Shown here: positions 7,128 through 28,146 of the stretch, one piece after another
Position numbering within the stretch: the first letter of the stretch is position 1
Layout: every line of letters begins with the position of its first letter
Origin: an uncultured Prevotellaceae bacterium
GTDB lineage: Bacteria; Bacteroidota; Bacteroidia; Bacteroidales; Bacteroidaceae
Direction of reading: 5' to 3'
Length of the DNA: 46,789 nt
Assembly (NCBI GenBank): GCA_900318685.1
Contig: ONLL01000028.1
Span: 1-46,789, forward strand
Notes under the pieces: model-generated
Seen by the model: only the letters and a program-made list of their open reading frames with translations
What the model was told of the DNA's origin: nothing
The model's database searches: none
Made by a program: the position numbers and the translations under genes

Positions 7128-7128
7128 A

Positions 7129-9084: not shown

Positions 9085-9099
9085 TGTTGTGTAGTTGTG

Positions 9100-11026: not shown

Positions 11027-11104
11027 TTTTTTGTCATGACTAAAAAGTGTACGTCAAAAGACGATTTTCCGTCCCCCATATTCCACAGGTTATTATTATC
11101 TTTG
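11027..11104 (+). promoter_or_regulatory. PUL operator and promoter, copy A (before 11153)
   Basis: The -7 box TATCTTTG is at 11097-11104. GTACG-N6-GAC is at 11049-11062, with an upstream half-site ending in GAC at 11038-11040, exactly 22 bp before the second GAC. GAC to -7 box is 37 bp, as in copies B, C and D. The arrangement fits a transcription activator binding two direct half-sites two helical turns apart, just upstream of the -33 region. Confidence 0.7.
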
Positions 11105-11152
11105 CAGCCGAAAAGAGAAACAAACTAATCATTAATACTAAACATTACAGCT

Positions 11153-13816
11153 ATGAAAAGAATCTTTATCCTCATGACCGTAGCGATGTTGGCATTTGCA
11201 GAGACTGTCAACGCACAAAGCTATCGCCGCTGGGACTTCACCAAGTTTAGCCAGCAAACCATTGACAACCTCATCGCCGATGATGAACAGGGCGATGAAA
11301 CAGGTTGGAGTGACGTAGAGTATCTAAGTAATATGAATGCCGTCGACAAGCGTTGTTTCTGGTATCAGGACGGGGACAACTATGGAACGGTTAAGGCTAA
11401 CGGTGTGGTGATCTCCGAGCTCGAGGGTCTCGACTTTGGTCAGGAATACTGCGCTAGCCGCAACCTAGCTATCGCCGTTGACTATGCTTCAACTAGTATC
11501 GGTACCTATGCCGGCCCACAATATCTCTGGTTGGGTATCAACAATACTCCCTATGCCTTCCGCATTCCCAATGTCGGCATTGGCCAGAAGATGACATTCG
11601 TCGTTGAGTCACACCGTAGCGGACAAGGACGCGGTATTGGACTCTATGTGAGCGATGAAAATGGAGAGATGCACATCATCGGCGATACCTTCACGCCTGA
11701 TGCACAGGAGTCGCGCACATGGGACATGTGGACACTGCCTGAAGGTGTGACCGACCCTGACGGCGACGGACTAGTAGACATCTATGTTAAGCCCACCAGC
11801 GGTTGCCACATCTACCTCATCGAAATTGGCGAGAATACGGAAGCACGCACCGTGGGCTACCTCTACAATGGCTCTCTCGATGCAGACCTGGGGTATCAGA
11901 CGCTCTCAGGCGACTATATGAATAAGGTGACTGCCATCGAGGCCAACAAGACCTTTACGATGGAGGACTTCGCCGACTATGATGCTATCGCCATCAGCTC
12001 TACCGTCGACAATGCCGATGCCATTGCTTCGCTGAAGCTGGTGCAGCCCTTCGTGCCCATCCTGAACCTCAATCCCAACCTCTATGCAGCATGGGGCTAT
12101 GGAGAAGCCGTTGACGCAGGCATCCAATTTGCCACCACCACTAATCCAAACCATGCATTGTTCAGGAAGCTAGAACTAATCGAGGATCCTGATGCTGAGG
12201 AACCCACATTCGTGCTAGCTGTGAGCAACGAGGTGCCTTTCCAGGGTCTGAAACTTGCCGGACTCTTTGCCGACGATCCCGTCTTGGCTGTAGCTTACCA
12301 GAACGAGGAGGTCGTAGCCATTCATACCCATAACCTTGCCCACAATGGCTACATTTATATCCCCTACACGCAGGAGACACTGGCCGATGCCGCTACACCT
12401 GACATTTTGGGCAATGCCCTTGCACTGCTTGCTAGCTCAAAGGCCCCTGTCACTCAGGCTCCTGCTCCCACCTTCACACTTGAGTATGAGAATCTGGCAA
12501 CCACCGTTTCTATCCAGGATGCAGCCCCACTACCAGAGATTTTCTACACACTCGACGGATCAGACCCGACAGAGGAGAGTACTCGCTATACTGAGCCTTT
12601 CACCGTCGAACAAGAAACTACAGTCAAGGCTATTGCTCGTGGCGACGGTTATCTGATGAGTCTTGTCGCCGAGAAGCTGATTGACATCCGCCAGAAGGCC
12701 CCGCTACCCACCTTCGCCATGGAGCAGGAGGATGGTAAGACCATCGTCACCATCAGCTCTGAGCTGGAGGGAGCCAAGATTTACTACAACTACAAGGGCG
12801 ACGGCACCACACAGAAGAGCAGCCCCTACAACGGCCCGATTACCATTACCAGAGGCAAAACCATCTATGCCTTCCAGACTTGCGAGGGATACCTCGATTC
12901 GAAGGTGGCCGAGGCTAAGGTTAGTGTGAAGAATCCACACGTGCGCATTGACATTCTGGCACAGATGGACGCCAATCAAGACACTTACTACGAGCGCACT
13001 AACAAGTCGGGTGGCAACGTAGGCTACTATTTCAGCTGGGCCAACACCAACGACCATCCCTACTGGGATCCTGAGTTTGACGAGACAGTGGTTGGCAGCG
13101 ACGGCAACGACAGTATCATCCACCACAAACTGAACAACGAGGAAGTGGTCGACTTCGAGAATGGCTGGAGCGTACGCTCACGCGGACAGCGCGTCTCCTG
13201 GGAGGGTGCCAACCCTGAACTGAACTATGGCGACTCAGGCAGTGGTCCCTGCAACCCCGCTACTGTTGAAGATGAGGATACCTACCTGCCTGTCACCCCG
13301 TTCATTGTGAACCTCTTCGACTGGGACACTCAGTATCCTGCCAGCGCCAAGATCCAGACCACACAGCCCATTGCCGGCCCGTTCGACTATGTGGCATACA
13401 TCGTCAACTACAAGGGTTCGCCATACGCACGACTGGTAGTCGAAGTGGCTACCGATCCTGAGGCTGACGACGCTGGATGGAAACAAGTTGGCGATACGCT
13501 TGAGCTGAACCCCACTCGCCGCCTCTACCAGATGTACGTGCGTAGCTATGAGGAGACCACTCCAGTTTACACACGCGTTCGCACTGTCAACAATGGTCCT
13601 CGCGCCGGATTCTTCAATATCTACATCACCAACGAGGGTGAGGAGTCGAAGAAGCTCATCCAGGAGCAGATGGACGGCATTGCCGAAGTGGAGCACAGCA
13701 TCAGCATGCCTGAAGGCATCTACAACATCAGCGGCTCACGTCAGAACGAGTTGCGAAAGGGCATTAATATCATTGTAAATGCTGACGGTAACGTCAGGAA
13801 AGTATTGGTGAAATGA
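11153..13816 (+). CDS. Secreted multi-domain protein: WDFT module, GATase-like and chitobiase-type domains
   Basis: 887 aa, signal peptide MKRIFILMTVAMLAFAETVNAQ. Residues about 25-228 are the WDFT module shared with the next three proteins (RRWDFTKFSQQTIDNL, CFWY, GPQYLWLGI, VESHRSGQGRG, SGCHIYLI). Residues about 230-430 look like a glutamine-amidotransferase-like fold without catalytic Cys (VGYLYNGSLDADLGYQ; inference). Two chitobiase-type beta-sandwiches follow (IFYTLDGSDPTEESTRYTEPF; IYYNYKGDGTTQKSSPYNGP). The remaining ~250 residues are not recognised. The end (GIYNISGSRQNELRKGINIIVN...KVLVK) resembles the tail of the neighbours. No catalytic domain is visible, so a glycan-binding surface role is inferred. 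First gene of a unit with the PL11 gene, ATGA overlap. Confidence 0.85.
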   Translation: MKRIFILMTVAMLAFAETVNAQSYRRWDFTKFSQQTIDNLIADDEQGDETGWSDVEYLSNMNAVDKRCFWYQDGDNYGTVKANGVVISELEGLDFGQEYCASRNLAIAVDYASTSIGTYAGPQYLWLGINNTPYAFRIPNVGIGQKMTFVVESHRSGQGRGIGLYVSDENGEMHIIGDTFTPDAQESRTWDMWTLPEGVTDPDGDGLVDIYVKPTSGCHIYLIEIGENTEARTVGYLYNGSLDADLGYQTLSGDYMNKVTAIEANKTFTMEDFADYDAIAISSTVDNADAIASLKLVQPFVPILNLNPNLYAAWGYGEAVDAGIQFATTTNPNHALFRKLELIEDPDAEEPTFVLAVSNEVPFQGLKLAGLFADDPVLAVAYQNEEVVAIHTHNLAHNGYIYIPYTQETLADAATPDILGNALALLASSKAPVTQAPAPTFTLEYENLATTVSIQDAAPLPEIFYTLDGSDPTEESTRYTEPFTVEQETTVKAIARGDGYLMSLVAEKLIDIRQKAPLPTFAMEQEDGKTIVTISSELEGAKIYYNYKGDGTTQKSSPYNGPITITRGKTIYAFQTCEGYLDSKVAEAKVSVKNPHVRIDILAQMDANQDTYYERTNKSGGNVGYYFSWANTNDHPYWDPEFDETVVGSDGNDSIIHHKLNNEEVVDFENGWSVRSRGQRVSWEGANPELNYGDSGSGPCNPATVEDEDTYLPVTPFIVNLFDWDTQYPASAKIQTTQPIAGPFDYVAYIVNYKGSPYARLVVEVATDPEADDAGWKQVGDTLELNPTRRLYQMYVRSYEETTPVYTRVRTVNNGPRAGFFNIYITNEGEESKKLIQEQMDGIAEVEHSISMPEGIYNISGSRQNELRKGINIIVNADGNVRKVLVK

Positions 13817-16800
13817 AAACAAACCGATTGCTTAGCATTGCGGTAGCCATCACGGCTACCGCTTTACCCTTAGAGGCACAGAATACCCCCGTCAGCCAGA
13901 TGGAGAAGCTGGATCGAGGGCTTATCGCATTGCCTGCATCAGGATCAGGAATGTTCGTCAGCTGGCGCTCGCTGGGCTACGATGCAGATGACACAAGTTT
14001 TGAATTGCTGCGCGACGGAGAGAGTCTGGCAAAGGATCTCTATGCCACGAACTACACCGATGCAGCAGGAAAGAAGACCAGCAGCTATCAGGTTGTCACC
14101 TTCGTGGGCGGTCAGTCTGTCGACACCACTGCCGCCGTCAAGCCATGGGCACAGCGTTACCTGAAGCTAGTGCTAAATCGACCCGCCAAGGGAACCAACG
14201 GAGGTACATACAATCCTAACGACTGCTCTGTAGGCGATGTCGACGGAGACGGAGAATACGAAATCTTCGTGAAGTGGGATCCTTCCAATGCCGCAGACAA
14301 CTCGCAGAGCGGTACCACCGACAACGTGTTCATCGACTGCTACAAGCTCAACGGCAAGCGTCTTTGGCGCATCGACCTGGGGCCTAACATCCGTGCCGGT
14401 GCCCATTACACCCAGTTCATGGTCTACGACTTCAACGGCGACGGACTCGCCGAGATGATCTGCAAAACCGGTCCCGGCTCGAAGGACGGTAAAAACCACT
14501 ACGTCAATCAGGCAGCTACGGAAGACGTCATCAAAAGTGCTGACAACACAAAAGTCTACCGCAATGGCAGTGGAAAGATTACTGGTGGACAAGAGTACCT
14601 CACCGTGTTCAACGGACTGACGGGCGAGGCCGTACACACCATTTTCTACAATCCTAACCGCGATGCAGGCTATGGCGGAGCAGCTACTGGCACCTTCAAC
14701 TGGGATGACCGTTCCGGCAAGAGTGACTATGCTGCCTATGGCAACCGTGGCGAGCGTTTCTTGGCCGGTGTTGCCCAGCTCGACGGCCCTGACAAACCTG
14801 CCAGCGGCATCTTCTGCCGTGGATACTATACCTTCGCCTTCATTTGGGCTGTGGACTTCGACGGGCAGTTGCTCCATCAGCGTTGGTTCAGCTCGCATAG
14901 GTCCAGGAACAGCTACACCGTGACCACCTTCGATGCCGATGGCAAGGGCTCCAGCAAGAACTTCTCGGGTTGCAGGCCCACCAGTGGCGGAGGCAGCGGC
15001 ACAATGTACGGCAACGGCAACCACAATATGTCGATTGCAGATGTCGATGGCGACGGACGTGACGAAATCGTTTGGGGCGCAGGTGCGCTCGACGACGACG
15101 GCACACTGCTCTATGGCACGGGCTTTGGCCATGGCGATGCCCTCCACCTGAGCGACCTGAACCCTGACCGCCCTGGACTGGAGATGTTCCAAGTGCACGA
15201 GGGGGGAGGCACTTACGCCTGGGACGTGCATGATGCACGCACTGGCGAGATACTGCTCAAAGGCGGCCCCGAGGGCGTGGACAATGGCCGAGGCATAGCC
15301 GGTAATTTTGGAACTGACATACGCGGAGCCGTCTTCTGGAGCAAGGAAGCCGCAGTGCGCAGTGCCATTACAGGAGAGTCGGTATCCACGAAGAAAGGGT
15401 CGAACAACTTCCGCATCTACTGGGACGGCGACCTCCAGGAGGAACTGCTCGACGGCAACAAGCTTGACAAGTGGAGCAAGACGGCAGTCACACGACTCGT
15501 CACTTTCAGCGACCTAGGCCCCAGCGGCACCTGCAACAGCACGAAGAACACTCCCAACCTCTCGGCCGATATTCTGGGCGACTGGCGTGAGGAGGTCATT
15601 CTCTGGCGAGCCAGCGACGCTGAGACCTGCCTGGCCATCTACTCTACCAACACACCCACCAACTACCGTGTGCCCACCCTGATGCATGACCATACCTATC
15701 GTATGGGTGTCTGCTGGCAGAACACGGCCTACAACCAGCCGCCACACCTGGGCTACTACCTGCCCGACATGAACATGCCCAGCATGACTGATGCAGGCAA
15801 ACGATTCGTGGTGAAGCTCGAAGAGCCCATAGACTGGACGTTCGCCACCAGCAACACCAAGGCGATTGAGTTCAACGGCTACACCTTCAACGGCGCAGCA
15901 CAGGAAGGCATGCCCCAAGGCATCGCATACACCATCGAGGGCGAGGAGACCCCCACGCTCAACATCAAGGGTGCTTTCCACGAAGCAGGCAACTACACAT
16001 TCAACTTCACGCTGACTGGCACCAAAGGCAATCGTGTGCCCGTGAGCATCAGCGCAGCATGCCGTAGCAACGAGCAGGTGTCGGGCGTCGTACGTCAGTG
16101 GGACTTCACCAAGTGGAGCCAGCAGACCATCGACAACCTCACAGCCGATGCCGAACAGGGCGATGAGACAGGATGGAGCGACGTGGAATATCTCAACAAT
16201 CCCAACCCTGTCGACAACCGCTGCTTCTGGTATCACTCTGACAACGAGGCTGGCACTATGAAAGCCAATGGACAAACTATAGCCGAACTCGAAGGACTCG
16301 TCTTCAGCGACGATTACTGTGCAGGACGCTCGCTCGCTATTGCTGTCAACTATGCCTCCACCGACATTGGCACTTATGCCGGACCTCAATATCTCTGGCT
16401 AGGTATCAATGGTGCACCTTACTGCTTCTATATTCCTAATGTAGTCGTCGGCCAGCCTCTCACCATGAGCGTAGAGTCGCATCGCAGCGGACAAGGACGA
16501 GGCGTGGGTATCTACGTCTTAGGTGACAACGGCAGCCTCCTTCAGATTGGAGACAACTTCACGCCTGATGCCAAGAGCAGCTACACCTGGGAGGACTGGG
16601 TGCTGCCCGATGGCGTGACCAGTATTGGCGGACAGGTGGACATCTACGTCAAGAACACCAGTGGATGCCACATCTACGACATCAATGCCGTGGTGGCTGA
16701 CAAGGGCGATACGGGCATCGACGCCCTACCCTCCCCCAACGACTCTCAGTCCACTATAATCTACAACCTCAACGGACAGCAGGTGGCTTCACCACAGCAC

Positions 16801-16842
16801 GGGCTGTACATTATCAACGGCCGGAAAACGGTGTTGAGATAA
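13813..16842 (+). CDS. PL11 rhamnogalacturonan lyase with C-terminal WDFT module
   Basis: 1009-aa secreted lyase, signal peptide MKTNRLLSIAVAITATALPLEAQ. Residues about 24-650 are a full PL11 domain: DVDGDGEYEIFVKWDPSNA, DFNGDGLAEMICKTGPGS, GNGNHNMSIADVDGDGRDE, LSADILGDWREEVILW, NTAYNQPPHLGYYLPD. A beta-rich linker follows (PIDWTFATSNTKAIEFNGYTF onward), then the WDFT module at about 762-968 (QWDFTKWSQQTIDNL, CFWYHSD, SGCHIYDI), closest in sequence to that of 11153. The end IIYNLNGQQV...GLYIINGRKTVLR matches a sorting-type tail. The start overlaps the upstream stop as ATGA. This is the second PL11 in the locus, far longer than the 651-aa copy. Confidence 0.93.
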   Translation: MKTNRLLSIAVAITATALPLEAQNTPVSQMEKLDRGLIALPASGSGMFVSWRSLGYDADDTSFELLRDGESLAKDLYATNYTDAAGKKTSSYQVVTFVGGQSVDTTAAVKPWAQRYLKLVLNRPAKGTNGGTYNPNDCSVGDVDGDGEYEIFVKWDPSNAADNSQSGTTDNVFIDCYKLNGKRLWRIDLGPNIRAGAHYTQFMVYDFNGDGLAEMICKTGPGSKDGKNHYVNQAATEDVIKSADNTKVYRNGSGKITGGQEYLTVFNGLTGEAVHTIFYNPNRDAGYGGAATGTFNWDDRSGKSDYAAYGNRGERFLAGVAQLDGPDKPASGIFCRGYYTFAFIWAVDFDGQLLHQRWFSSHRSRNSYTVTTFDADGKGSSKNFSGCRPTSGGGSGTMYGNGNHNMSIADVDGDGRDEIVWGAGALDDDGTLLYGTGFGHGDALHLSDLNPDRPGLEMFQVHEGGGTYAWDVHDARTGEILLKGGPEGVDNGRGIAGNFGTDIRGAVFWSKEAAVRSAITGESVSTKKGSNNFRIYWDGDLQEELLDGNKLDKWSKTAVTRLVTFSDLGPSGTCNSTKNTPNLSADILGDWREEVILWRASDAETCLAIYSTNTPTNYRVPTLMHDHTYRMGVCWQNTAYNQPPHLGYYLPDMNMPSMTDAGKRFVVKLEEPIDWTFATSNTKAIEFNGYTFNGAAQEGMPQGIAYTIEGEETPTLNIKGAFHEAGNYTFNFTLTGTKGNRVPVSISAACRSNEQVSGVVRQWDFTKWSQQTIDNLTADAEQGDETGWSDVEYLNNPNPVDNRCFWYHSDNEAGTMKANGQTIAELEGLVFSDDYCAGRSLAIAVNYASTDIGTYAGPQYLWLGINGAPYCFYIPNVVVGQPLTMSVESHRSGQGRGVGIYVLGDNGSLLQIGDNFTPDAKSSYTWEDWVLPDGVTSIGGQVDIYVKNTSGCHIYDINAVVADKGDTGIDALPSPNDSQSTIIYNLNGQQVASPQHGLYIINGRKTVLR

Positions 16843-16870
16843 CATCAGCAGCCAATCCTTAATAATAGCG

Positions 16871-16901
16871 ACCCCGACAGCCATGAAGTGGCTGCCGGGG
16901 T
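16871..16901 (+). terminator. Intercistronic hairpin between PL11 and CE12 genes
   Basis: ACCCCGACAGCCA pairs with TGGCTGCCGGGGT (one mismatch) around a TGAAG loop. No T-run follows, so it may stabilise or partly terminate the message rather than act as a full intrinsic terminator. No promoter box is seen between it and the gene at 16927. Confidence 0.65.
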
Positions 16902-16926
16902 TCATAACCTACCTACAACATAGCTT

Positions 16927-19569
16927 ATGAAACGAATTGCAAGACTTATCGCAGCAACTGCGCTTTTGACACTCAGCCAGCCGGCAGAATCGCAGAGACT
17001 GGTAGAAGACCAAAACGTGTTCAAGGACATCACCATACGTGCCGACGTGCGCAACACGCGCTATCTCATCCCCTCACCGGCAGGCAAGCTTCGCAAGGCA
17101 GGCAAGCCCGTGGCTTTCTTCTGCGGCGACTCCACCATGCGCAATGGGTCGAAGGGCGACGGTGGCATACAGGGGCAGTGGGGCTGGGGACTATTTGCCC
17201 AGGAATGGTTCAATGCCGACGAGCTCGTCTGTGAGAACCACGGCATGGGAGGAATGTCTTCCCGCACCTACTATACCAGCAACCTTTGGCGGAACGTGAA
17301 GAACGCCCTAAAGCCCGGCGACTACGTCATCATAAGCTTCGGCCATAACGACGGAGGCAGCAACTGGGAAACAAAGTCGAGCATTGGCGGGACATCGGCC
17401 ACAGAGACGCGTACGGTGAAAAAGAGCGATGGCACTACCGAGACGGTGTATACCTTCGGGCAGTATCTGCGCTTCTTTATCGACGAGACCCGTGAAAAAG
17501 GTGCCACCCCCATCCTGTGCTCACGCACGCCGCGCTATGGATTCACCAACGGCAAGCATAACATTGAGACCAACTACCGATCCTGGGGAAAGGCCATCGC
17601 CCAGGAGAAAGGAGTGAGCTATATCGACCAGGAAGCTGTGGTCAGCGAGCACTATAACGTTTTCGGCGAATGGAAGACCTATCAGATGTATTGCGCCGAC
17701 CAGTCCCTCCACCCCGGTCTGCGTGGTGCCTGGGAGTGTGCTTATGGAGCTGCATTGGCCATTGCCGCCGACCCTGAGAATCCGCTCTATGAATACCTCG
17801 TCGACATGACTCCCGCCAAACTCGACATAGAGCGCACTGAGGGTCAGCCATATACTTTCACCATCGGAGGAACGAACCAGACGAGCGCCCGCGATTGCTA
17901 CCGATCGGGCGACTGGTATCTTGTCTACAACACCATGCAGCCCGGCGACACCGTCATCATGCGCTTTGGCCAGTCAGAACTGACATCCACACAGGCTGGC
18001 AACGAACTGGGCAGTCTGCAGTCGGCGGATGACAAACAGAGCAACCTGAGTATGTCGGCCACGAAGCGCAATGAGATGGTATACAGCTACGGCTGGTACA
18101 TCCATTTCTTCGTCAACGACTGCCTGGAGCGAGGTGCAATTCCTGTACTGGTGAACGATAAGGACTGGACACCCGAGGTCATTAAGGGTTGGAATCAGAC
18201 GTTGGCTAAAAAGTTCAACATCGAACTGCTTGAGTCAAACAAATACAAATATAATATCACCATCAATTGCAATGGAAGCCAACTGGCCACGCTTGTCTCT
18301 GGATCCATCTATGAAGGCGAAACGCTGACCATCCCTTACCCCCGCTACTACAACCACAACGGACATCTCTACGTGACCGAGCCCACCGAAGGGAAGTATC
18401 AGCTCCAGTTGTCGCTCCACGCTCCACAGGACATTGCGCTCGACTATCATGACACCAACATTAGCGACGCGATCCTGCTCTCCGAGGCCGAGGACATCAA
18501 GGCCCTGAAGACTGTTCAGAGCGAGGTCTGCTCGAATACTGCCGCTGCCTATGCAGCCAGCGACACCAAGGTCCTCCGACTTTCTTCAGGCACCTACACC
18601 CTTACTGCTGCCGCCATTGGAGGTGAGATGCAGTTCAAGGCCGGCCAGACGAAAGTGCTGACGATGGATGCCTCGTCCTCATGGAACGAGCAGCGCAGCG
18701 CAGCCTTCACGCTGACCGAGCCTGCCGACCTGCTTTTCAAGGGCGGATCGGGACAGGACTCCGCACTCGACTATTTCTTCCTGCAGAGCACAGACGGCAC
18801 TGTCGTCGACGAGCTGTCTCGCTGGGACTTCACCAACTGGAGCGCAGCCACCATAGCCAACCTTACCGCCGATGCCAATGCTGGCGACGAGACGGGATGG
18901 AGCGACCAGGAATACCTAGGCTCGTCGACACCCGTCGATAACCGATGCTTCTGGTATCATTCTGACACCGACTATGGCACCGTGAAGGCCAACGGTGAGG
19001 TGATTGCCGAACTCGACGGGCTCTACTTTCCAGAGGAATACTGCAAACAGCGCAACCTGGCCATCGCCGTCGACTATGCTTCTACCTCCATCGGCACCTA
19101 CCACGGCCCACAATACCTGTGGCTGGGCATTGCCAACACTATTTGTTTCGTCATCCCCGACGTGAAGGCAGGTACAGAGATCAAGATGGCCGTAGAGTCA
19201 CACCGCAATGGTAATGCCCGTGGTGTACAGCTGTTCCTGAACAACGGCACGCTGACCAACATCGTCAAGGGTGCCGAGTTGAAGGATCCCAACGGCAAGA
19301 CAGTGCCTGTGCCCGATGCATATACCGAACAGACATGGCTCGTTCCTAGCGATGCCGGCACGGTCGACGTGCTTGTCTACAACACCAGTGGATGCCACGT
19401 CTACTACGTCGAGGCCGTCCAAGCCACCGGTTCCACAGTCAACAGCATCAACATTGTTAAAACCTGCCAGCCGTCGACAGACCTCTTCTACAACCTCCAA
19501 GGCACGCCAGTGGGCCATCCCACGAAAGGCATCTACATCAACAACGGCAAGAAGGTCGTGATTAAGTGA
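16927..19569 (+). CDS. CE12-type rhamnogalacturonan acetylesterase with degenerate second SGNH domain and WDFT module
   Basis: 880-aa secreted esterase predicted to remove acetyl groups from rhamnogalacturonan. Signal peptide MKRIARLIAATALLTLSQPAESQ. The SGNH domain (about 50-290) has FCGDSTM (Ser69), NHGMGGMSSRTY, FGHNDGG (N141) and ADQSLHPGLRGAW (D258, H262; one residue wider than the usual DxxH). Residues about 300-435 look like a second SGNH core without Ser or His: LVYNTMQPGDTVIMRFGQSE and YIHFFVNDCLERGAIPVLVND mirror the first domain's KNALKPGDYVIISFGHND and LRFFIDETREKGATPILCSR. Two more modules shared with 19806 follow, ending with the WDFT module (about 630-840) and the tail GIYINNGKKVVIK. 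Confidence 0.88.
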   Translation: MKRIARLIAATALLTLSQPAESQRLVEDQNVFKDITIRADVRNTRYLIPSPAGKLRKAGKPVAFFCGDSTMRNGSKGDGGIQGQWGWGLFAQEWFNADELVCENHGMGGMSSRTYYTSNLWRNVKNALKPGDYVIISFGHNDGGSNWETKSSIGGTSATETRTVKKSDGTTETVYTFGQYLRFFIDETREKGATPILCSRTPRYGFTNGKHNIETNYRSWGKAIAQEKGVSYIDQEAVVSEHYNVFGEWKTYQMYCADQSLHPGLRGAWECAYGAALAIAADPENPLYEYLVDMTPAKLDIERTEGQPYTFTIGGTNQTSARDCYRSGDWYLVYNTMQPGDTVIMRFGQSELTSTQAGNELGSLQSADDKQSNLSMSATKRNEMVYSYGWYIHFFVNDCLERGAIPVLVNDKDWTPEVIKGWNQTLAKKFNIELLESNKYKYNITINCNGSQLATLVSGSIYEGETLTIPYPRYYNHNGHLYVTEPTEGKYQLQLSLHAPQDIALDYHDTNISDAILLSEAEDIKALKTVQSEVCSNTAAAYAASDTKVLRLSSGTYTLTAAAIGGEMQFKAGQTKVLTMDASSSWNEQRSAAFTLTEPADLLFKGGSGQDSALDYFFLQSTDGTVVDELSRWDFTNWSAATIANLTADANAGDETGWSDQEYLGSSTPVDNRCFWYHSDTDYGTVKANGEVIAELDGLYFPEEYCKQRNLAIAVDYASTSIGTYHGPQYLWLGIANTICFVIPDVKAGTEIKMAVESHRNGNARGVQLFLNNGTLTNIVKGAELKDPNGKTVPVPDAYTEQTWLVPSDAGTVDVLVYNTSGCHVYYVEAVQATGSTVNSINIVKTCQPSTDLFYNLQGTPVGHPTKGIYINNGKKVVIK

Positions 19570-19646: not shown

Positions 19647-19673
19647 CTATTGGACAACGGGCAGAGTGACGTT

Positions 19674-19751
19674 ATTTCATCATTGACATAAAAATGTATG
19701 CTAAAAGACTGATTTCTGCCCCTAACCTTTGCCTTTTTTTCATTACCTTTG
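19674..19751 (+). promoter_or_regulatory. PUL operator and promoter, copy B (before 19806)
   Basis: The -7 box TACCTTTG is at 19744-19751. GTATG-N6-GAC is at 19696-19709, the upstream half-site GAC at 19685-19687 (22 bp apart), and GAC to -7 is 37 bp. The flank AAAAATGTATGCTAAAAGAC closely resembles copy A. A TAACCTTTG at 19723 is an unused-looking second box. Confidence 0.75.
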
Positions 19752-19805
19752 CACCCAGAATATGCAAAACATTTTTATTCACTAACCATTTAAACTAAAA
19801 ACAGT

Positions 19806-22109
19806 ATGAGAAAAAGAATCTTTACGCTAATCTCGGCTGCATTCGTAGCAGCCGGAGCATGGGCACAGATCAGCTCGCTCCCCTTTGCTGCTAACTTCGA
19901 AGAGTCGACAGCTCCATTCGATGCTGGCATTGTCAAGGCTGCCACAGAGGTAGGCAACGTACTCAGCGTGGGCAACACCACAGCCACCGCTACCTTCGCC
20001 ATGGGCGGAGAGGGTGCCTATGCCATCGCCGAGAACGAGGAGATCACTATCCAGTTCGACGGACTGCAAGGATGGGCTAACGACGCCTCGACATCTACCA
20101 TCCAGCTGGTCAACTCCGACGGTGTGGTACTCGTGGGCTACACCTACACCCGTAAAGCCTGCCAGGTCACCGACGTGGCGCTGGGCGGACAGACCGCAGC
20201 CGGATTCGCCGCATTCACCGGACAGGCCAACTTCAACAACAACAAGAGTGCCAACGGCTTCACCCACAGCCAGCACTACGTCAACACCGCAAACTACACG
20301 CCGAAAGTGACCTTCAAGGTGCACGGACTGGGAGCCGTCACGTTCAACATGGTCTACCAGCCTGCCAAGAAGGCCCTGCAGAACATCACCTACTCGGCCA
20401 ACCTTGAGGGCGTGAAGATGGACTTGGCCAAGATCGTCATCATCGACGACTGCACCAATGACGACCGCAACATCGGTATCGACAACCTGACCGTTACCAC
20501 TGCCGAGAAGTACCTCTACAAGTACGTCATCAACTATGTCGACGAGAACGGCACCACTGTCAAGCAGGAAGAGGGTGCTGCTGAGGAAGGCACGAAGATC
20601 GCCGTCACCACCGACCCCGTATGGGCCAACGGCGTGAAGTACTTTGTGGTGAGCAACGACAGCGAGGAGAATCCCGTTGACAACACCAACGAGACCGTCA
20701 TCACCGTTCAGGTGAAGCAGGCAGCCACCTACAAGTACACCGTCATCGCCACCGACGGTGAGAACACCCTGGCCACACTCGCCGACAAGTCATGGTTCGA
20801 GGGCGAGACCGTGGGCTACGCCTATCCGCGCTACTTCTGCGTTGACGGTACACTTCTGAAGAAGGATCCCACCGACATGGTCTACAACGGTTCCTTCCTC
20901 CTCGACGCTGACGGCAAGCAGGTAGAGGCCGTCTATGCTGCTACCGAGACCACCGGTGTCATGTTCTTCAAGGAGGCTGAGGACTTCGACGTGCTCACCG
21001 TCTGCAACACCGGCACCGTGGCCGACCGCTGCTCCTACCGTGCCGGCGGCTATGCCAAGGAAGAGGTGACACTGCTCAAGCTCGCTGCAGGCACCTACAA
21101 GCTCACCGCTGCTGCCTACGGAGGCGCCTACACCTTCAAAGTCGGCGAGCAGGAAGTGCTCAATATCGCTTCCGCCGGATCATGGCGTGAGACAGCAGGC
21201 GAAGAGTTCACCCTGACCGAGCCCACAGAGATTATCTTCGTCGGAGGCAATGGCGAGGCAGGATCTCTCGACTACATCTTCATCCAGAGTGAGGACGGAG
21301 CCATCGTCAGCGATGTGACACGCTGGGACTTCACTGCCTGGAGCGCAGAGACCGTGGCTAACCTCCTCGCCGATGCTGCTGCCAGCAAGCTTGAAGGATG
21401 GAGCGACGTGGAGAAGCAGGGTGATGCTGAAGCCGACAAGGATCCTACCGAGACCTCAAAGGACAATTGCTTCTGGGCTGCCAAGACCATGGAGCCCGAC
21501 GAGCAGGGACAGCTCTATGCCAACGGTGTGGTCATCCAGGAGCTTGTGGGCCTCATCTTCCAGCAGCCCGCCCTGGCCAACCGTAACCTGGCCATCGCCG
21601 TCAACTATCCTCACGCCCTGAGCGACTACTACGGAGGCGCTTACCTCTGGCTGGGTGGTTCGAACAAGGACTACTTCATCATCCCCAATGTGAAAGTTGG
21701 CACTGAGATCAAGATGGCTGTCGAGTCACACAAGCTCTCCGACGCCCGTGGCGTACGCCTCTTCATCAACGCTCCTGAGGAGGGTGCCAGCGTCAAGCAC
21801 GGCACACAGCTGACGGCTCCCGACGGCAGCGAGGTCGCTATGCCAAAGGAATACACAGAGCAGACATGGCTCGTACCTGCATCGGAAGAGACGGACAAGG
21901 TCGACATCATCGTCAACAACAGCAATGGCTGCCACATCTACTACATCGAGTGCGAGCAAGTGCCTCAGGAGGATGTGCCCGTAGCCATCCAGGAGGTTGC
22001 TGCTGAGAAGGTTGCCGCAGAAGGCATCTTCACCATCAGCGGCCAGCAGGTCACCAACCCACAGCGTGGTCTCTACATCATCAATGGCAAGAAGGTAGTA
22101 ATTAAGTGA
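19806..22109 (+). CDS. Secreted non-catalytic multi-domain protein with WDFT module
   Basis: 767 aa, signal peptide MRKRIFTLISAAFVAAGAWAQ. Residues about 22-235 form a beta-rich, lectin-like N-terminal domain I do not recognise. A MucBP-like segment follows (YKYVINYVDENGTTVKQEEG), then a domain shared with the esterase (YTVIATDGENTLATLADKSWFEGETVGYAYPRYF), a second shared domain with FKEAEDFDVL, AGTYKLTAAAYGG and SLDYIFIQSEDG, and the WDFT module at about 504-725 (RWDFTAWSAETVANL, CFWAA, GCHIYYIE). The tail is GLYIINGKKVVIK. No enzyme domain is visible. It has its own PUL operator, so a glycan-capture role alongside SusD is inferred. Confidence 0.85.
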   Translation: MRKRIFTLISAAFVAAGAWAQISSLPFAANFEESTAPFDAGIVKAATEVGNVLSVGNTTATATFAMGGEGAYAIAENEEITIQFDGLQGWANDASTSTIQLVNSDGVVLVGYTYTRKACQVTDVALGGQTAAGFAAFTGQANFNNNKSANGFTHSQHYVNTANYTPKVTFKVHGLGAVTFNMVYQPAKKALQNITYSANLEGVKMDLAKIVIIDDCTNDDRNIGIDNLTVTTAEKYLYKYVINYVDENGTTVKQEEGAAEEGTKIAVTTDPVWANGVKYFVVSNDSEENPVDNTNETVITVQVKQAATYKYTVIATDGENTLATLADKSWFEGETVGYAYPRYFCVDGTLLKKDPTDMVYNGSFLLDADGKQVEAVYAATETTGVMFFKEAEDFDVLTVCNTGTVADRCSYRAGGYAKEEVTLLKLAAGTYKLTAAAYGGAYTFKVGEQEVLNIASAGSWRETAGEEFTLTEPTEIIFVGGNGEAGSLDYIFIQSEDGAIVSDVTRWDFTAWSAETVANLLADAAASKLEGWSDVEKQGDAEADKDPTETSKDNCFWAAKTMEPDEQGQLYANGVVIQELVGLIFQQPALANRNLAIAVNYPHALSDYYGGAYLWLGGSNKDYFIIPNVKVGTEIKMAVESHKLSDARGVRLFINAPEEGASVKHGTQLTAPDGSEVAMPKEYTEQTWLVPASEETDKVDIIVNNSNGCHIYYIECEQVPQEDVPVAIQEVAAEKVAAEGIFTISGQQVTNPQRGLYIINGKKVVIK

Positions 22110-22205: not shown

Positions 22206-22217
22206 ACACCCCATTAT

Positions 22218-22253
22218 CTGGCCTCCGCTTTTACGGCGGGGGCCAGTTTTATT
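22218..22253 (+). terminator. Intrinsic terminator after 19806
   Basis: CTGGCCTCCGC pairs with GCGGGGGCCAG (one G-T pair) around TTTTACG and is followed by TTTTATT. It separates the 19806 unit from the SusC/SusD unit. Confidence 0.85.
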
Positions 22254-22301
22254 GATTCCCACCCCTCTTTTTCGCTACCTTTTTTCGTCAGAATGCCACT
22301 T

Positions 22302-22379
22302 TTCTCTGCATTGCCGAAAAAACGTATGGTATTTGACAGATTTCCGTTTGCACCATTTTATAAAAAGTATGTACCTTTG
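22302..22379 (+). promoter_or_regulatory. PUL operator and promoter, copy C (before susC)
   Basis: A -33-like TTTG at 22347-22350 and the -7 box TACCTTTG at 22372-22379 are separated by 21 bp. GTATG-N6-GAC is at 22324-22337; the upstream half-site reads GCC at 22313-22315, 22 bp before GAC. GAC to -7 is 37 bp. Transcription from here would give a leader of about 255 bases before the susC start. Confidence 0.75.
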
Positions 22380-22579
22380 CACCGACAAACTACTTCATCA
22401 ACATATTTTTTATGGTATCTGCAAGACAGAAACACATTTTGGTTTTAGTTAATTTAGTTAGTAATGTAGGTTGAACGGGGTTTGACTAGGGTAATGAGAT
22501 TGTTTTCGGATAACTTAGAAGTAACTACTAAAAAACATAAAATAACAACCTGAGAGAAAAAGAAATGAAATACATTTGC

Positions 22580-22587
22580 TATCTTTG
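22580..22587 (+). promoter_or_regulatory. Possible second promoter close to susC
   Basis: TATCTTTG lies 58 bp before the susC start and has no GTAYG-N6-GAC operator at the usual distance. It could be a second, differently controlled start, or chance in an AT-rich leader. The rest of 22380-22644 holds no gene that I can see. Confidence 0.45.
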
Positions 22588-22644
22588 CACAATTAAAAAC
22601 AACTACAACTCTATTATTTCTAATTTACAAAACCATTATTAAAC

Positions 22645-25600
22645 ATGAAAAAACAAAAAAGGATGAATCCCTGGGGACGTAGCACATCGTGGCGACGCCT
22701 CCTGCTCCTCGCCTTGCTGACTGTCTGCTCGACAGTGGCTATGGCTCAGGGAAGGGTGACAGGAAAGGTGGTGGACGCCTCTGGCGAGCCAGTCATCGGA
22801 GCCAGTGTTGCCGTCAAAGGTACTACCAATGGCGCTGTGACCGACCTGGATGGTAACTACACGATCAGCAATGTACCCGCAGGCGCAACGCTCACCGTGT
22901 CGTACATCGGCTATCGCACACAGAACGTCAGCGTTGGCGGCAAGCAGAGTGTGAACTTCACGCTCGAGGAAGACAAGCAATTGCTCGACGAGGTCGTTGT
23001 TGTCGGCTATGGCGTACAGCGCAAGAGCGATGTCACTGGCGCATTAACGCGTGTCGGTGAGAAAGAGCTGAACGCTAAACCTGTTACGAACGCTTTCGAA
23101 GCCCTGCAGGGTAAGGCAGCCGGCGTAGACATCACCAGCAGCCAGCGCCCTGGCACATTGGGGAGTATCATGATTCGTGGTACTCGCTCACTCAACGCAT
23201 CGAGCGAGCCTCTATACGTAGTCGATGGAGTTCCTCTTCAGTCAGGAGGCATTGAGACACTCAACCCTCGCGACATCGAAGCTATCGACATCCTGAAGGA
23301 TGCATCCTCGACAGCCATCTATGGAAGCCGTGGTGCCAACGGTGTGGTGCTCATCACCACCAAGCGCGGACAGGAAGGCAAGACACAGCTGAACTACAGC
23401 GGCACGATGACTTTCGAGAAGATTGTGGACAAGAGTCCTGCCATGAGTGCCAGCGACTATATCACCTGGCGCCGCTGGGCTTACTACAACTCAGCTCCCG
23501 ACAAATATACTCCTGGCGACCAGCCCACACTGGAACAGGACAAGTCGTTCTTCTCAGGCGACGAAGTGGCTTGGGCCAACATCGAGAAGGGATGGGCTGG
23601 CGGCACTTGGGATGGCTCGAAGGTGACCGATACCGACTGGACCGACTTTGTCACCCGTACTGGTATCACCCAGGAGCACACCATCAGCGCACGTGGCGGC
23701 TCAAAGAACATGAGTGGAAGCATCTCCTTTGGCTACCTGAACAACAAAGGTACGCAGAGAGGACAGCAGTACGAGCGCTACACCCTGAGCACTTCTGCCG
23801 ACATCCAGGCCAAGCCTTGGTTCAAGGCTGGAGGTTCGTTCAATGCCAGCTACAGCGAACTACAATATGGTTTCTCGCGTACCGGCCAGTCGAGCAATTC
23901 TGGTCCTACCGACATCTACGGAGCTGCCAAGCAGATCCTGCGCTATACCCTGCCTTACGATGACGCAGGCAACATCATCCTCGTTCCTGGCGGATCAGTG
24001 AGCAACACCTATACCATCATGGACGAGTGGAACAAGTCGAACGACAACCGTCAGACCTTCCGTGCACTGGGTAGCTTTTACGGACAGATTGACTTCGGCA
24101 AGATCTGGGAGCCTCTGGCAGGCCTGCAATATAAGCTGCAGTTCGGTCCCGACTTCCGTTTCTATCGTATGGGCAATTTCATCGATGCCAGCTCGGCTGC
24201 ACGTGGTGGCGGCAACAACTATGCACGTCGCAACGACATCCGCAACTTCGCCTGGACACTCGACAACATGATTCTCTACAACAAGTCCTTCGGCGAGCAC
24301 GACCTCGGACTGACCCTCTTGCAGTCGGCATCGAAGAGCAATACTGAGACCAGTGGAATGAACTCAGAGAACATTCCCCTTCCTTCGTTCCTGTGGAATA
24401 ACATGGGCTCAGTCGACATCACACAGTCGGCCAATAAGTCGGGCATGAGCACTGGCCTTACAGAGCGCGCCCTGTCATCTTACATGGCCCGTGTCAACTA
24501 CGCATTCCGCGACCGCTACCTGCTCACTGCTTCAGCCCGTTGGGACGGCAGCAGCGTGCTGGCCGAGGGCAACAAGTGGGACTTCTTCCCCTCGATGGCC
24601 CTAGGTTGGCGCATGGAGCAGGAAGACTTCATGAAGGACGTCAGCTGGGTTGACCAACTGAAGGTGCGCTTCGGCGTGGGTGTCACTGGCAACTCAGCCG
24701 TCGACCCCTACGGCACCCTTGGTGTCATCAGTTCTTACTGGATGCCTTTCAGCCTTGGCAACTCCCAGATACTCGTGACCAACGAGCCCTACTACAGCAG
24801 TGGTTCCAACAAGATGCCTAACAAGAACCTCTCTTGGGAAAAGACCACACAGTGGAACTTCGGTATCGACTTCAGCTTCCTGAAGGGCCGCATCGGAGGA
24901 ACCCTCGACATGTACACCTCAACGACCACCGACCTGCTCATGCTCATGACTGTGCCTTCACTCTCGGGCTATCCCTCGATGATGGACAACGTGGGTAAGA
25001 CCTCGAACAAGGGTGTTGAGCTGACACTGAACACCATCCCCGTGTTGACCAAGGACTTCATGTGGCAGTCGAACCTGAACCTGGCATGGCAGAAGGACAA
25101 GATTGAGGAGCTGTCCAACGGTAAGGAGGACGACATTAACAACTCTTGGTTCATCGGCGAGAGCATCGCTGTCTTCTATGGCTACGAGAACGATGGTCTC
25201 TGGCAGGAGAGCGATGCTGCTGAGATGCAGAAGTTCAATGACAACGGCGAGAAATTCTCTGCAGGTATGGTGAAACCCGTCGACCAGAACGGCGACTACA
25301 AGATCAACGAGGAAGACCGTGTCATCCTGGGCAATCGCAACCCACGTATCACGGCCGGCTGGACCAATACACTCTCATGGAAGGGATTCGAGCTCACACT
25401 CGAGCTGCAGGGTCGCTTTAAGTATATGATCAGCACGGGTGGCGAAGGTCAGCTTGGTATGTATCAGCAGCGTGAGATCAGCTACTGGACTCCCTCGAAT
25501 ACCGATGCCGACTGGCAGAAGCCTATCTACAGCACAGGCGGTGGCGACCAGAAGGCTGCCCTGCTCGGCTTCAAGGATGCTTCGTTCGTGAAGATCCGCA

Positions 25601-25785
25601 ACCTCTCTCTGGGCTACAACTTCGACAAGAGCATCTGCCAGACGCTGGGCATCAGTGGTGCCAAGCTCTATGTGCAGGGTAAGAACCTGGGCATGCTCTG
25701 CTCGTCAGTCGACTTTATGGACCTCGACACGGGTGCCACTTTCTATAACCGTGGCTTCACCGTCGGACTGAGCGTCGACTTCTAA
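22645..25785 (+). CDS. SusC-like TonB-dependent outer-membrane transporter
   Basis: 1046-aa outer-membrane porin that imports oligosaccharides, here presumably from rhamnogalacturonan I, using TonB energy and a SusD lid. Signal peptide up to TVAMAQ; a carboxypeptidase-regulatory-like domain (GRVTGKVVDASGEPVIGASVAVKGT, about 33-110) and the linker LLDEVVVVGYGVQRKSDVTGAL (TonB box region) precede the plug (ALQGKAAGVDI, SIMIRGTRSLNASSEPLYVVDGVP, IYGSRGANGVVLITTK), then the barrel. The end (FYNRGFTVGLSVDF) fits the usual aromatic terminal strand. It is followed 46 bp on by the SusD gene. A start at the second Met (22663) is possible. Confidence 0.96.
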   Translation: MKKQKRMNPWGRSTSWRRLLLLALLTVCSTVAMAQGRVTGKVVDASGEPVIGASVAVKGTTNGAVTDLDGNYTISNVPAGATLTVSYIGYRTQNVSVGGKQSVNFTLEEDKQLLDEVVVVGYGVQRKSDVTGALTRVGEKELNAKPVTNAFEALQGKAAGVDITSSQRPGTLGSIMIRGTRSLNASSEPLYVVDGVPLQSGGIETLNPRDIEAIDILKDASSTAIYGSRGANGVVLITTKRGQEGKTQLNYSGTMTFEKIVDKSPAMSASDYITWRRWAYYNSAPDKYTPGDQPTLEQDKSFFSGDEVAWANIEKGWAGGTWDGSKVTDTDWTDFVTRTGITQEHTISARGGSKNMSGSISFGYLNNKGTQRGQQYERYTLSTSADIQAKPWFKAGGSFNASYSELQYGFSRTGQSSNSGPTDIYGAAKQILRYTLPYDDAGNIILVPGGSVSNTYTIMDEWNKSNDNRQTFRALGSFYGQIDFGKIWEPLAGLQYKLQFGPDFRFYRMGNFIDASSAARGGGNNYARRNDIRNFAWTLDNMILYNKSFGEHDLGLTLLQSASKSNTETSGMNSENIPLPSFLWNNMGSVDITQSANKSGMSTGLTERALSSYMARVNYAFRDRYLLTASARWDGSSVLAEGNKWDFFPSMALGWRMEQEDFMKDVSWVDQLKVRFGVGVTGNSAVDPYGTLGVISSYWMPFSLGNSQILVTNEPYYSSGSNKMPNKNLSWEKTTQWNFGIDFSFLKGRIGGTLDMYTSTTTDLLMLMTVPSLSGYPSMMDNVGKTSNKGVELTLNTIPVLTKDFMWQSNLNLAWQKDKIEELSNGKEDDINNSWFIGESIAVFYGYENDGLWQESDAAEMQKFNDNGEKFSAGMVKPVDQNGDYKINEEDRVILGNRNPRITAGWTNTLSWKGFELTLELQGRFKYMISTGGEGQLGMYQQREISYWTPSNTDADWQKPIYSTGGGDQKAALLGFKDASFVKIRNLSLGYNFDKSICQTLGISGAKLYVQGKNLGMLCSSVDFMDLDTGATFYNRGFTVGLSVDF

Positions 25786-25831
25786 TTTGCGAGTGTACAC
25801 ATACATTATTAATAAAAGGAAACTAACGAAC

Positions 25832-27967
25832 ATGAAACATATCAATAGTAAATTAGTTTGTGGTGCATTGACGCTCTGCGCTGCCATGAGCCTCACCTCC
25901 TGCAGCGACGACTTCCTCAAAGAGGATGCCGGACACCTCTATAGCGATGCACTGCTGGAGACTGGAGACGGTGCCTTGAAGATGGCTGCCGGCCTCTATG
26001 GCAACATTCGTTGGCATTTTGGCTACGAATGGGCATACGGTATCACGCTCTATGGTTGCGACGAGTTCACCACGGGTGCCGACAACACCTCTGAGATCTG
26101 GAACACCTACGACAACAACCTCAATCCACTCGACTTCACACGTGCCTTGGGCGCTCCCAACAACAACTGCCCGCCCGTGTCGGCCCTGTGGAACCAGATG
26201 TACTATGGCATCTCCACTGCCAACCTGGTGCTCTCGAAGGCCAGCCAGGTGGCCGATGAGGACTCGCGCAACAAGGCCATGGGCGAGGCCTACTTCCTCC
26301 GTGGCTACAACTACTATCGCCTGTTTGCCCAGTATGGCGGCGTGGTGCTGCAGACTGAGCCTGCCAATGGTGAGGTGAAGAAAGACTACACCCGTGCCAC
26401 AGAAGAGCAGACACTGAACCAGGTCATCGCCGATCTGGAGCAGGCCTATCAGCTGCTGCCCACCTCAAAATGGCGTGGCAACGGCACATGGACGAAGTAC
26501 ACGGCTGCCCACTTCCTGGCCAAGGCCCTGCTGTTCCGTCAGTCGGAGCGCTGCGGCAAATGGAATGGCAGCTACGACAAGTCGGCCGACCTCAATCGTG
26601 CCATCAACCTCTGCAATGAAGTGATCGCTGCATGTCCACTGGCTCCCAACTACAGTGACCTATACGCCAACTGGACAGGCATCAACTGCCCCAACGAGGG
26701 TCTCGACGAGATTCTCATGGCTGCTGAGCACAATGGCGACGCTACCACGCAGGGACGCTTCGGCAACCGTACCTACAACTATTTCTCGCCCCAGTTCTCC
26801 AACTTCTCAGGAGGATGGATCAAGCGTGGCGCTTACATCGGAGAGATGGACTTCCAGCGCTGCCGTCCCACGGAGTACACCTACTCCACGTTCGACAATG
26901 TGAACGATGCCCGCATGTGGAAGACCTTCAAGACCATCTACGGACTGAACAACCAGCAGCAGTCGGCTGCCGACCTGCAGGCCAAGTATGGTCTGACACC
27001 TGAGCAGTGCCCCACCATCGGCGATCAGGGATGTATCTTCATCCTTAACAAGAAGAGCGACCACCGCTTCGACGGCGAGCCTTACGGCACCTTCGGACGT
27101 GGCGGACAGGACCACACCTTCATCAATCCTGAGACAGGCAAGTGGGTGCCCAACGCCTTCCCCCTCTTCCTCGACGGCAAATATGTGCTCAACACCTATG
27201 GCGTGAGCGGCAACCCTGCCACCTCTAACGTCTTCTGCGGCATCAACAAGACCGCCGATGGCAGCCGTACGGCTGAGAAGGGCGATGCCCATCGCGATGT
27301 GATCATGGCACGCTCTGGCGAGACCTATCTGGTGAAGGCCGAGTGCCAGGTGCGCCTGGGTCAGTATCAGGAGGCCATCAACACCATCAACATCATCCGT
27401 GCACGCGCCCAGTGGAAGCAGGGCGAGGACCGCAGCTACTATTCTGATGGTTCCATCGCTTTCCTGAAGGCTGACGGCGGCATGACCGACAACGCTATCG
27501 CTGGCAACAACTCCAACTGCAAAGATGCCAACGGCAAGACAATGACGATGACTGATGCCTACTACGCATCTCACCTGCATAAGAACACTTACTATCTCTC
27601 GACTGGCATTGCCGAGACCACGGCACCCTCCGACCTGCAGATCAAGAGCTACACCCAGCTGCCGCAGGAGGATGAGGACATCCTGGCCGCCATCGGCGCC
27701 ACGGGAGACTACGACCGTATGCTGAACTTCGTGTTCAATGAGCGCACTCGTGAGTGCCTCGGCGAGTGGAACCGCTGGGAGGAGCTGAGCCGTGCAGGCC
27801 TGCTCATCAAGCGTGCCAAGGCCTTCAATCCTGAGGCCCAGAACATCACTGCCAACAAGCACGAACTGCGTCCCATCCCACAGGCTTTCATTGATGCCCT
27901 TCAGAATTCTGACGGCACCAACCTCTCCAGCGAGCAGAAGAAAGCCTGGCAGAATCCTGGCTATTAA
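25832..27967 (+). CDS. SusD/RagB-like glycan-binding lipoprotein
   Basis: 711-aa surface lipoprotein that binds glycan and caps the SusC pore. I start it at 25832 (MKHINSKLVCGALTLCAAMSLTSC), since this gives a lipobox LTSC with Cys at about 23 followed by SDDF; the frame is open 15 codons further up but those lie in the A-rich leader. SusD features: AYFLRGYNYYRLFAQYGGVVL near residues 145-165, the TPR-like core, GETYLVKAECQVRLGQYQEAINTINIIRARA, and NFVFNERTRECLGEWNRWEELSRAGLL near the end. It is longer than the archetypal ~550 aa, as in complex-pectin loci. Same transcript as SusC. Confidence 0.95.
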   Translation: MKHINSKLVCGALTLCAAMSLTSCSDDFLKEDAGHLYSDALLETGDGALKMAAGLYGNIRWHFGYEWAYGITLYGCDEFTTGADNTSEIWNTYDNNLNPLDFTRALGAPNNNCPPVSALWNQMYYGISTANLVLSKASQVADEDSRNKAMGEAYFLRGYNYYRLFAQYGGVVLQTEPANGEVKKDYTRATEEQTLNQVIADLEQAYQLLPTSKWRGNGTWTKYTAAHFLAKALLFRQSERCGKWNGSYDKSADLNRAINLCNEVIAACPLAPNYSDLYANWTGINCPNEGLDEILMAAEHNGDATTQGRFGNRTYNYFSPQFSNFSGGWIKRGAYIGEMDFQRCRPTEYTYSTFDNVNDARMWKTFKTIYGLNNQQQSAADLQAKYGLTPEQCPTIGDQGCIFILNKKSDHRFDGEPYGTFGRGGQDHTFINPETGKWVPNAFPLFLDGKYVLNTYGVSGNPATSNVFCGINKTADGSRTAEKGDAHRDVIMARSGETYLVKAECQVRLGQYQEAINTINIIRARAQWKQGEDRSYYSDGSIAFLKADGGMTDNAIAGNNSNCKDANGKTMTMTDAYYASHLHKNTYYLSTGIAETTAPSDLQIKSYTQLPQEDEDILAAIGATGDYDRMLNFVFNERTRECLGEWNRWEELSRAGLLIKRAKAFNPEAQNITANKHELRPIPQAFIDALQNSDGTNLSSEQKKAWQNPGY

Positions 27968-28028
27968 TTGATAGCCGGACACGCGGCTGTGACAGTCGCA
28001 GATTATTGTTTTATTATTAGGTTGTTTG

Positions 28029-28063
28029 TAGAGGCTGCTCCGTGATGGTGCGGCCTCTATTTT
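28029..28063 (+). terminator. Intrinsic terminator after susD
   Basis: TAGAGGCTGC pairs with GCGGCCTCTA (one G-T pair) around an 11-base loop, followed by TTTT. It lies just before the operator of copy D. Confidence 0.8.
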
Positions 28064-28068
28064 CGTCG

Positions 28069-28146
28069 TTATGCCCCTTGACGATAATCTGTATGAAGAT
28101 TGACGAAAAAGCGAATGCCCTTTTCCAGAGATTATCACTACCTTTG
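28069..28146 (+). promoter_or_regulatory. PUL operator and promoter, copy D (before 28180)
   Basis: The -7 box TACCTTTG is at 28139-28146, GTATG-N6-GAC at 28091-28104, the upstream half-site TTATG-N6-GAC at 28069-28082. The two half-sites are 22 bp apart and both carry TATG-N6-GACGA, so this copy shows the direct repeat most clearly. GAC to -7 is 37 bp. Confidence 0.78.

Follow-up and report, generated by a model that had tools for sequence, protein, structure and literature searches.

What do the promoters of a pectin gene cluster have in common, and which protein would read it? The question is raised by a 46,789-base stretch of DNA from an uncultured Prevotellaceae bacterium (contig ONLL01000028.1), referred to here as the window. 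The window is one entire contig (C23) of a 3.96 Mb genome that is divided into 66 contigs and is 87.5% complete. Four promoters in the window share a direct repeat at a fixed distance from the -7 box. From comparison across genomes, these four sites very probably serve as operators for a single regulon of pectin (rhamnogalacturonan I) genes that is read by HTCS-A, a hybrid two-component system (HTCS) protein encoded on another contig of the same genome.

The motif GTAYG-N6-GAC begins at positions 11049, 19696, 22324, and 28091, exactly where an earlier note on this DNA had placed it. Upstream half-site triplets (GAC, GAC, GCC, and GAC) begin at positions 11038, 19685, 22313, and 28080, each 22 bp before the second GAC. 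A -7 box (TATCTTTG or TACCTTTG) begins 37 bp past the start of the second GAC at all four sites. Operator/promoter 1 (11036..11104, plus strand, as are the other three) has half-sites at 11037-11052 and 11059-11072 and the -7 box TATCTTTG at 11097-11104. The remaining three contain the -7 box TACCTTTG. Operator/promoter 2 (19683..19751) has half-sites at 19684-19699 and 19706-19719 and its -7 box at 19744-19751. Operator/promoter 3 (22311..22379), with the GCC variant in the first half-site, has half-sites at 22312-22327 and 22334-22347 and its -7 box at 22372-22379. Operator/promoter 4 (28078..28146) has half-sites at 28079-28094 and 28101-28114 and its -7 box at 28139-28146. The position weight matrix scores are 56.1, 63.3, 63.4, and 54.6, respectively, for sites that are all in the training set of the matrix.

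The operator unit is a direct repeat of approximately TGACGAAAAWYTGTAtg and TGACGAAWWWYYGt with a period of 22 bp, and its second GAC lies 37 bp before TAnnTTTG. Self-similarity of the sites peaks at offset 22 (6, 6, 7, and 9 of 14 matches), with offset 18 as the runner-up (5, 7, 5, and 2). GTAYG therefore spans a boundary of the repeat unit, and TGAC-N7-YGTAY and (T/A)GAC-N7-YG describe the two half-sites better.

Seven copies of GTAYG-N6-GAC exist on the two strands of the window, and the three not described above, all on the minus strand, have no such context. The argument that invariant spacing is improbable by chance holds up, as 4 of 7 copies at one spacing correspond to a probability of approximately 7e-13 per spacing tried (simple binomial, local TANNTTTG rate of 3.7e-4). 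The description of the promoters as unlinked does not, since the four, although separate, fall inside 17 kb of the same contig. The 100 bp upstream of the four sites have a mutual identity of 20-33%, and for this reason the sites do not look like recent duplicates of one promoter.

A scan of the whole genome with the exact pattern of the earlier note returns three sites. The pattern GNC-N8-GTAYG-N6-GAC-N34-TANNTTTG, with up to two mismatches, returns exactly the four sites of the window, with none on the opposite strand and none for a reversed-pattern control. The motif thus does not occur equally often before unrelated genes of its own genome, as it might have done had the regulon been illusory. 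The motif could instead be an extended promoter element for a sigma or general factor, and the spacing to the -7 box is indeed fixed almost everywhere. Against this stand its restriction to four copies in the genome, its 22-bp tandem repeat, and its absence from SusC promoters in relatives without HTCS-A. This explanation is extremely unlikely and largely refuted.

HTCS-A is 1336 amino acids in length and is encoded at C35:176045-180055. It contains Reg_prop, Y_Y_Y, HisKA, HATPase_c, Response_reg, and AraC-type HTH_18 domains in a single chain, of which the Reg_prop/Y_Y_Y part would be the periplasmic sensor. The best PDB matches are the hybrid sensor 3v9f (372 bits) and the hybrid receiver-HTH structure 12aw (203 bits). 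Downstream of HTCS-A are a PL22-like gene (Pfam score under the cut-off) and LamG/Mala_s_1, DUF5597/GH42, PKD, and GH28 genes. Measured from the contig ends, no less than 47 kb separates HTCS-A from the closest operator.

The candidate regulator was identified through relatives of the window. A search with SusD gave 80 loci, mostly from rumen Prevotellaceae going by their titles. In 14 of the 80, an HTCS gene is located upstream of SusC on the opposite strand and matches the last 250 residues of HTCS-A at 311-387 bits, whereas in the genome of the window this gene is on another contig. A PL11 gene lies between HTCS-A and SusC in three loci (L048, L054, and L058). HTCS genes at other SusD loci match the same 250 residues at 106-180 bits.

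The SusC promoters were scanned with a matrix made from the four window sites only, and 74 of the 80 loci could be scored (six were truncated or unparsed). The operator is present at the spacing of the window in 19 of the 74. The best match falls at exactly 37 nucleotides in 13 of the 14 loci that have HTCS-A, in none of the 19 that have another HTCS, and in 6 of the 41 whose flanks contain no HTCS. For all six site-bearing genomes of this last group, an HTCS-A match exists in another part of the genome or past the flank. In five of the six, the match is 69-76% identical or, in G001, is found as two pieces of one frame. The HTCS-A copies of G001 (a single open frame despite the two matching pieces), G003, and G004 (where the flagged stops are gene ends) are intact.

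A degenerate pattern (p1, three mismatches allowed) is present in 15 of 37 genomes. These are the same 15 that have an HTCS-A match (G006 at 59% identity), with none among the other 22 and none of 37 in the reversed control. The Fisher p value is 1e-10, or 2.5e-9 with G006 scored as HTCS-A-negative; kinship is ignored in these values. The pattern was fixed after 25 sites were known, at least 14 of them from the 37-genome set, so the material outside its making consists of the negatives, G023, G027, and most genomes of the genus survey below. G023 and G027 have HTCS-A and no site at SusC, yet each has a site beside HTCS-A, before a fusion gene containing DUF362.

Kinship was taken into account on the SusD tree, where the trait changes 10 times, at least eight of these on well-supported branches. 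Independent contrasts agree in 8 of 8 cases (p = 0.0078). Using the SusC promoter alone, six of eight agree and two show no difference (p = 0.031), and with G006 scored as HTCS-A-negative, seven of eight agree and one shows no difference (p = 0.016). Worth recording separately is that the operator and HTCS-A matches are both missing from the genomes of the top five SusD loci (L043-L047, 78-87% identity).

The genus set comprises 299 genomes, with HTCS-A called at 300 bits or more. HTCS-A is present in 27 genomes and the pattern in 28, with both in 23; the pattern occurs in 5 of the 272 others (G527, G568, G713, G522, and G566). There are 41 pattern matches against five for the reversed control (Fisher p of 1e-25, again ignoring kinship). 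G527, which has coordinates equal to those of G001 and is outside the 27, has HTCS-A in one open frame that was scored in pieces. G568, also outside the 27 and with the pattern, has a frameshifted HTCS-A. In this genome (G568:C66, L248:13333-17303), HTCS-A extends over two overlapping frames while the operator is kept, which may be assembly error or decay. The matches in G522 (between opposite-strand open reading frames (ORFs), 32 bits) and G566 (10 bits) are likely due to chance and are still counted. The pattern is absent from G687, G532, and G534, whose HTCS relatives are 54-58% identical. Eleven of the 27 HTCS-A genomes were known before the pattern was made (matched by coordinates or site letters). 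Of the 16 new to it, 12 have the pattern and two more (G719 and G471) have a weaker site.

Among 399 genomes of the family, the pattern is present in 17, with two matches for the reversed control. Seven genomes have HTCS-A at 60% identity or higher, and five of these have the pattern, while G146 has a site at spacing 38. Of the 12 other genomes with the pattern, 10 have a matrix score below 14 bits and were set aside as chance matches. The other two (G428 and G072) score approximately 29 bits, and each has an HTCS that is 49-50% identical.

One result counts against the motif itself. In the own genome, the 25-base upstream part of the pattern alone, with one mismatch, has 362 matches against 689 for its reversed control. 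As this part is common without the promoter, and below its control, the specificity resides in the complete unit; the part alone was dropped as a search motif because it is too common. Several other results weigh against the reading of the sites by HTCS-A. No operator with a promoter is present in the HTCS-A cluster of the own genome, where the 5' region of HTCS-A has nothing beyond a 20-bit repeat. L081 has HTCS-A adjoining SusC and no site at spacing 37. Four of the 27 HTCS-A genomes of the genus lack the pattern: two have the weaker sites given above (G719 and G471), and G670 and G518 have no site near HTCS-A (the G518 contig is only 5.7 kb). There is likewise no site near HTCS-A in G429 of the family set (60% identity). 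In G006 (locus L053), the HTCS-A match is only 59% identical and stands beside a different SusC gene; L053 ends at a contig edge exactly where its sister locus L058 has HTCS-A. G006 slightly lowers the confidence given above. In addition, 36 of the 80 SusD loci were hand-picked for the 37-genome test. These comprise all six site-bearing loci that lack a linked HTCS, 6 of 14 with HTCS-A, 14 of 19 with another HTCS, and 10 of the remaining 41.

HTCS-A travels with GH28 and PL22-like genes, so it cannot be identified as the binding protein by co-occurrence alone. Another DNA-binding protein that travels with the cluster (SusR-like, a stand-alone AraC protein, or another HTCS) could read the sites, with HTCS-A controlling something else. 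Candidates exist, as the own genome has three other Y_Y_Y matches, two of them in frames of more than 1300 amino acids with an HTCS-like C-terminus. The C-terminal domain of HTCS-A has 21 matches in this genome (E ≤ 1e-3). G713, which is 76% complete, has two good sites and no HTCS-A match, and an ORF at one of its contig edges has no match among the HTCS compared. Set against this, the second-best match in the own genome scores 143.5 bits compared with 541 for HTCS-A, and loci with another HTCS have the site at spacing 37 in none of 19 cases, some having a different repeat. A different reader is therefore unlikely, and HTCS-A is preferred.

The genes behind the four sites form the predicted regulon. 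All are on the plus strand. Operon 1, downstream of operator 1, begins with p887 (11153..13816), an 887-amino-acid protein with two Fn3_assoc/CHB_HEX_C_1 stretches whose relatives in other genomes are preceded by a site. It continues with a PL11-type rhamnogalacturonan lyase with an RGL11_C domain (13813..16842) and a GDSL/SGNH esterase (16927..19569), which matches the NCBIfam model of pectin acetylesterase PaeY at 39.5 bits against a cut-off of 1000. Operator 2 precedes p767 (19806..22109, 767 amino acids), for which no match was found in Pfam, NCBIfam, or PDB. The C-terminal part of p767 has relatives in the C-terminal parts of the operon 1 GDSL and PL11 proteins: residues 294-767 align with the GDSL C-terminus (43%) and residues 439-766 with that of PL11 (39%). 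Operator 3 is followed by a SusC-like TonB-dependent transporter (22645..25785) and a SusD-like protein (25832..27967 from an ATG start; the ORF table gives a TTG start at 25787). Operator 4 precedes a Mala_s_1-like and DUF362 fusion (28180..30315, 711 amino acids), whose relatives are also preceded by a site. In PMC5742341, DUF362 in the context of a polysaccharide utilization locus (PUL) is appended to CBM9, unlike the fusion in the window.

The C-terminal stretch common to p767 (C-terminal part of 19806-22109), PL11 (15919-16836), and GDSL (18190-19566) has no Pfam name. A p767 match is present in 87 of 299 genus genomes, often to this stretch alone and within larger frames. Glyco_hydro_88, PL11, and CotH-type genes (5736..10959, minus strand) are divergent from operator 1, which points away from them. 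No second site that would make this CotH-PL11-GH88 operon a fifth target was found on the minus strand of the intergenic region.

The same genes are targets elsewhere. Over all loci, 56 distinct sites of at least 25 bits were counted, 21 of which had trained the matrix. They lie before susC (24), the DUF362 fusion (10), p887 (8), PL11 (2), p767 (1), and a gdsl-like ORF (1; 50 bits only), with 10 left unassigned by the script. Five of these 10 are promoters of p887 (L229, L240, and L242), p767 (L171), and DUF362 (L168), and the other five are in L173, L174, L177, L178, and L224. The susC count is inflated because many loci were fetched via SusD, although the genus matches were not. In G282, of the same genus, sites precede the DUF362 fusion, p767, p887-PL11-GDSL, and a 991-amino-acid ORF that has no match to the proteins of the window and has a SusC-like gene (181 bits) behind it. 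In G719, G649, and G471, p767 has no site of its own and is placed behind PL11 in the p887 gene row. The conservation of sites or operon membership at the same genes argues that the DUF362 fusion and the 887- and 767-amino-acid proteins are co-regulated with SusC/SusD, as the earlier note had predicted. The spacing to the -7 box is fixed at nearly every site, with one at 38 (L174).

We infer the following mechanism. A periplasmic pectic oligosaccharide would trigger the phosphorylation of HTCS-A. The TGAC-N7-YG direct repeat would next be occupied by two AraC-type domains, spaced by two turns along a single face of the helix. With the proximal half-site lying immediately above the -33 position, they would recruit RNA polymerase to a promoter that has a good -7 box and appears to lack a TTTG -33 box. 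TTTG is found 17-23 nucleotides before the -7 box at 1 of the 56 sites. Judged by position, the sites are arranged as for an AraC-type activator, the proximal half-site falling immediately above -33. The absent -33 box is weak evidence; PMC7366714 identified none in Flavobacterium johnsoniae either. The bound protein might instead repress, as the HTCS BT2391 reportedly does at its own locus (PMC11253607). Repression is very unlikely here, given that the sites are just above -33 rather than over the -7 box or start and that 55 of 56 have no TTTG -33 box. Of the earlier proposal, the direct repeat two turns apart and its hybrid two-component reader are backed by the comparative data, while activation is a prediction.

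In several relatives, the neighbors of HTCS-A adjoin the operator. The order in G719 is PKD-GH42-PL22-HTCS-A-CotH, followed by a site and p887-PL11-p767 in the opposite orientation, and G471 and G649 are similar. For this reason, the regulator and its targets were probably joined in one block that is split in the genome of the window. The repeat in the HTCS-A 5' region (L039:12077-12114) scores 20.1 bits (reversed control maximum of 18.7), is directed away from the gene, and has no -7 box at 37; it may be a relic or an autoregulatory site. Further repeats without a -7 box at 37 are present near HTCS-A or its targets in relatives.

A second repeat was identified at six loci without the HTCS-A site (L055, L089, L090, L092, L094, and L095). 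Upstream of SusC in each, there is a direct repeat of approximately GTACGTTTTTAC with a period of 21. The sequence GTACGTTTTTA begins exactly 36 nucleotides before TANNTTTG, and 21 bp further up lies a second copy that agrees with it in 11 to 13 of 14 letters. Four of the 19 loci that contain another HTCS have this sequence, as do 2 of the 36 others, for a total of 6 of the 55 loci without the HTCS-A site; none of the 19 loci that have that site does. L055, L089, L094, and L095 resemble the window in placing a direct repeat above a promoter of the same type and differ in repeat sequence and period (21); the HTCS in their flanks match HTCS-A at only 111-136 bits. This alternative repeat is probably the operator of another HTCS, which suggests that the same promoter geometry is used by a different HTCS.

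Genomes with SusD relatives of up to 87% identity contain both HTCS-A and the operator or lack both. Regulator and operator may therefore have been exchanged as a matched pair on near-identical transporter genes, with the geometry as a fixed socket for different sugar sensors (36 versus 37 nucleotides) and the sensor in this genome also moved off its targets. We give this idea an even chance. Natural swaps of regulator and operator between close loci would allow direct tests of how regulatory specificity evolves.

HTCS are a major class of regulators for Bacteroides polysaccharide genes, and the regulator is usually paired with its targets by adjacency. In this rumen Prevotella, sequence alone links an operator and its rule of spacing to a distant regulator and to the genes of a regulon, and three poorly known proteins (the DUF362 fusion, p887, and p767) are placed in a predicted pectin response. 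A literature search of titles and abstract openings, mostly of non-subscription sources, gave no account of the operator or its HTCS, of a regulator standing apart from these targets, of the named targets, or of a similar Prevotella HTCS regulon. According to PMC11107044, growth on rhamnogalacturonan induces predicted rhamnogalacturonan PULs in two related rumen species; these PULs may or may not correspond to the locus in the window.

HTCS direct-repeat operators are already known, and the operator in the window is probably a further case. The kind is known because PMC3878776 describes direct repeats for Bacteroides HTCS, including two rhamnogalacturonan regulons. These repeats average 21 bp, or two helix turns; the operator described here has a period of 22 bp, and HTCS-A has the one-chain domain set. 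In the same source, 25 of 36 HTCS genes are beside susC/susD, so co-localization of the regulator is not strictly defining for HTCS regulons. HTCS receiver-HTH fragments bind susCD promoters in electrophoretic mobility shift assays, as reported in PMC11253607. Compared by layout and not by letters, HTCS_Rgu-1 (BT4111/BT4124) of Bacteroides thetaiotaomicron shares with the window the rhamnogalacturonan genes, an HTCS with an AraC-type domain, and a direct repeat, and has two 12-bp sites with a 9-bp spacer for a period of 21 rather than 22. HTCS_Rgu-2 (BT4178/BT4182), also from PMC3878776, shares the rhamnogalacturonan genes and the direct repeat, and differs in having two 14-bp sites with a 6-bp spacer for a period of 20.

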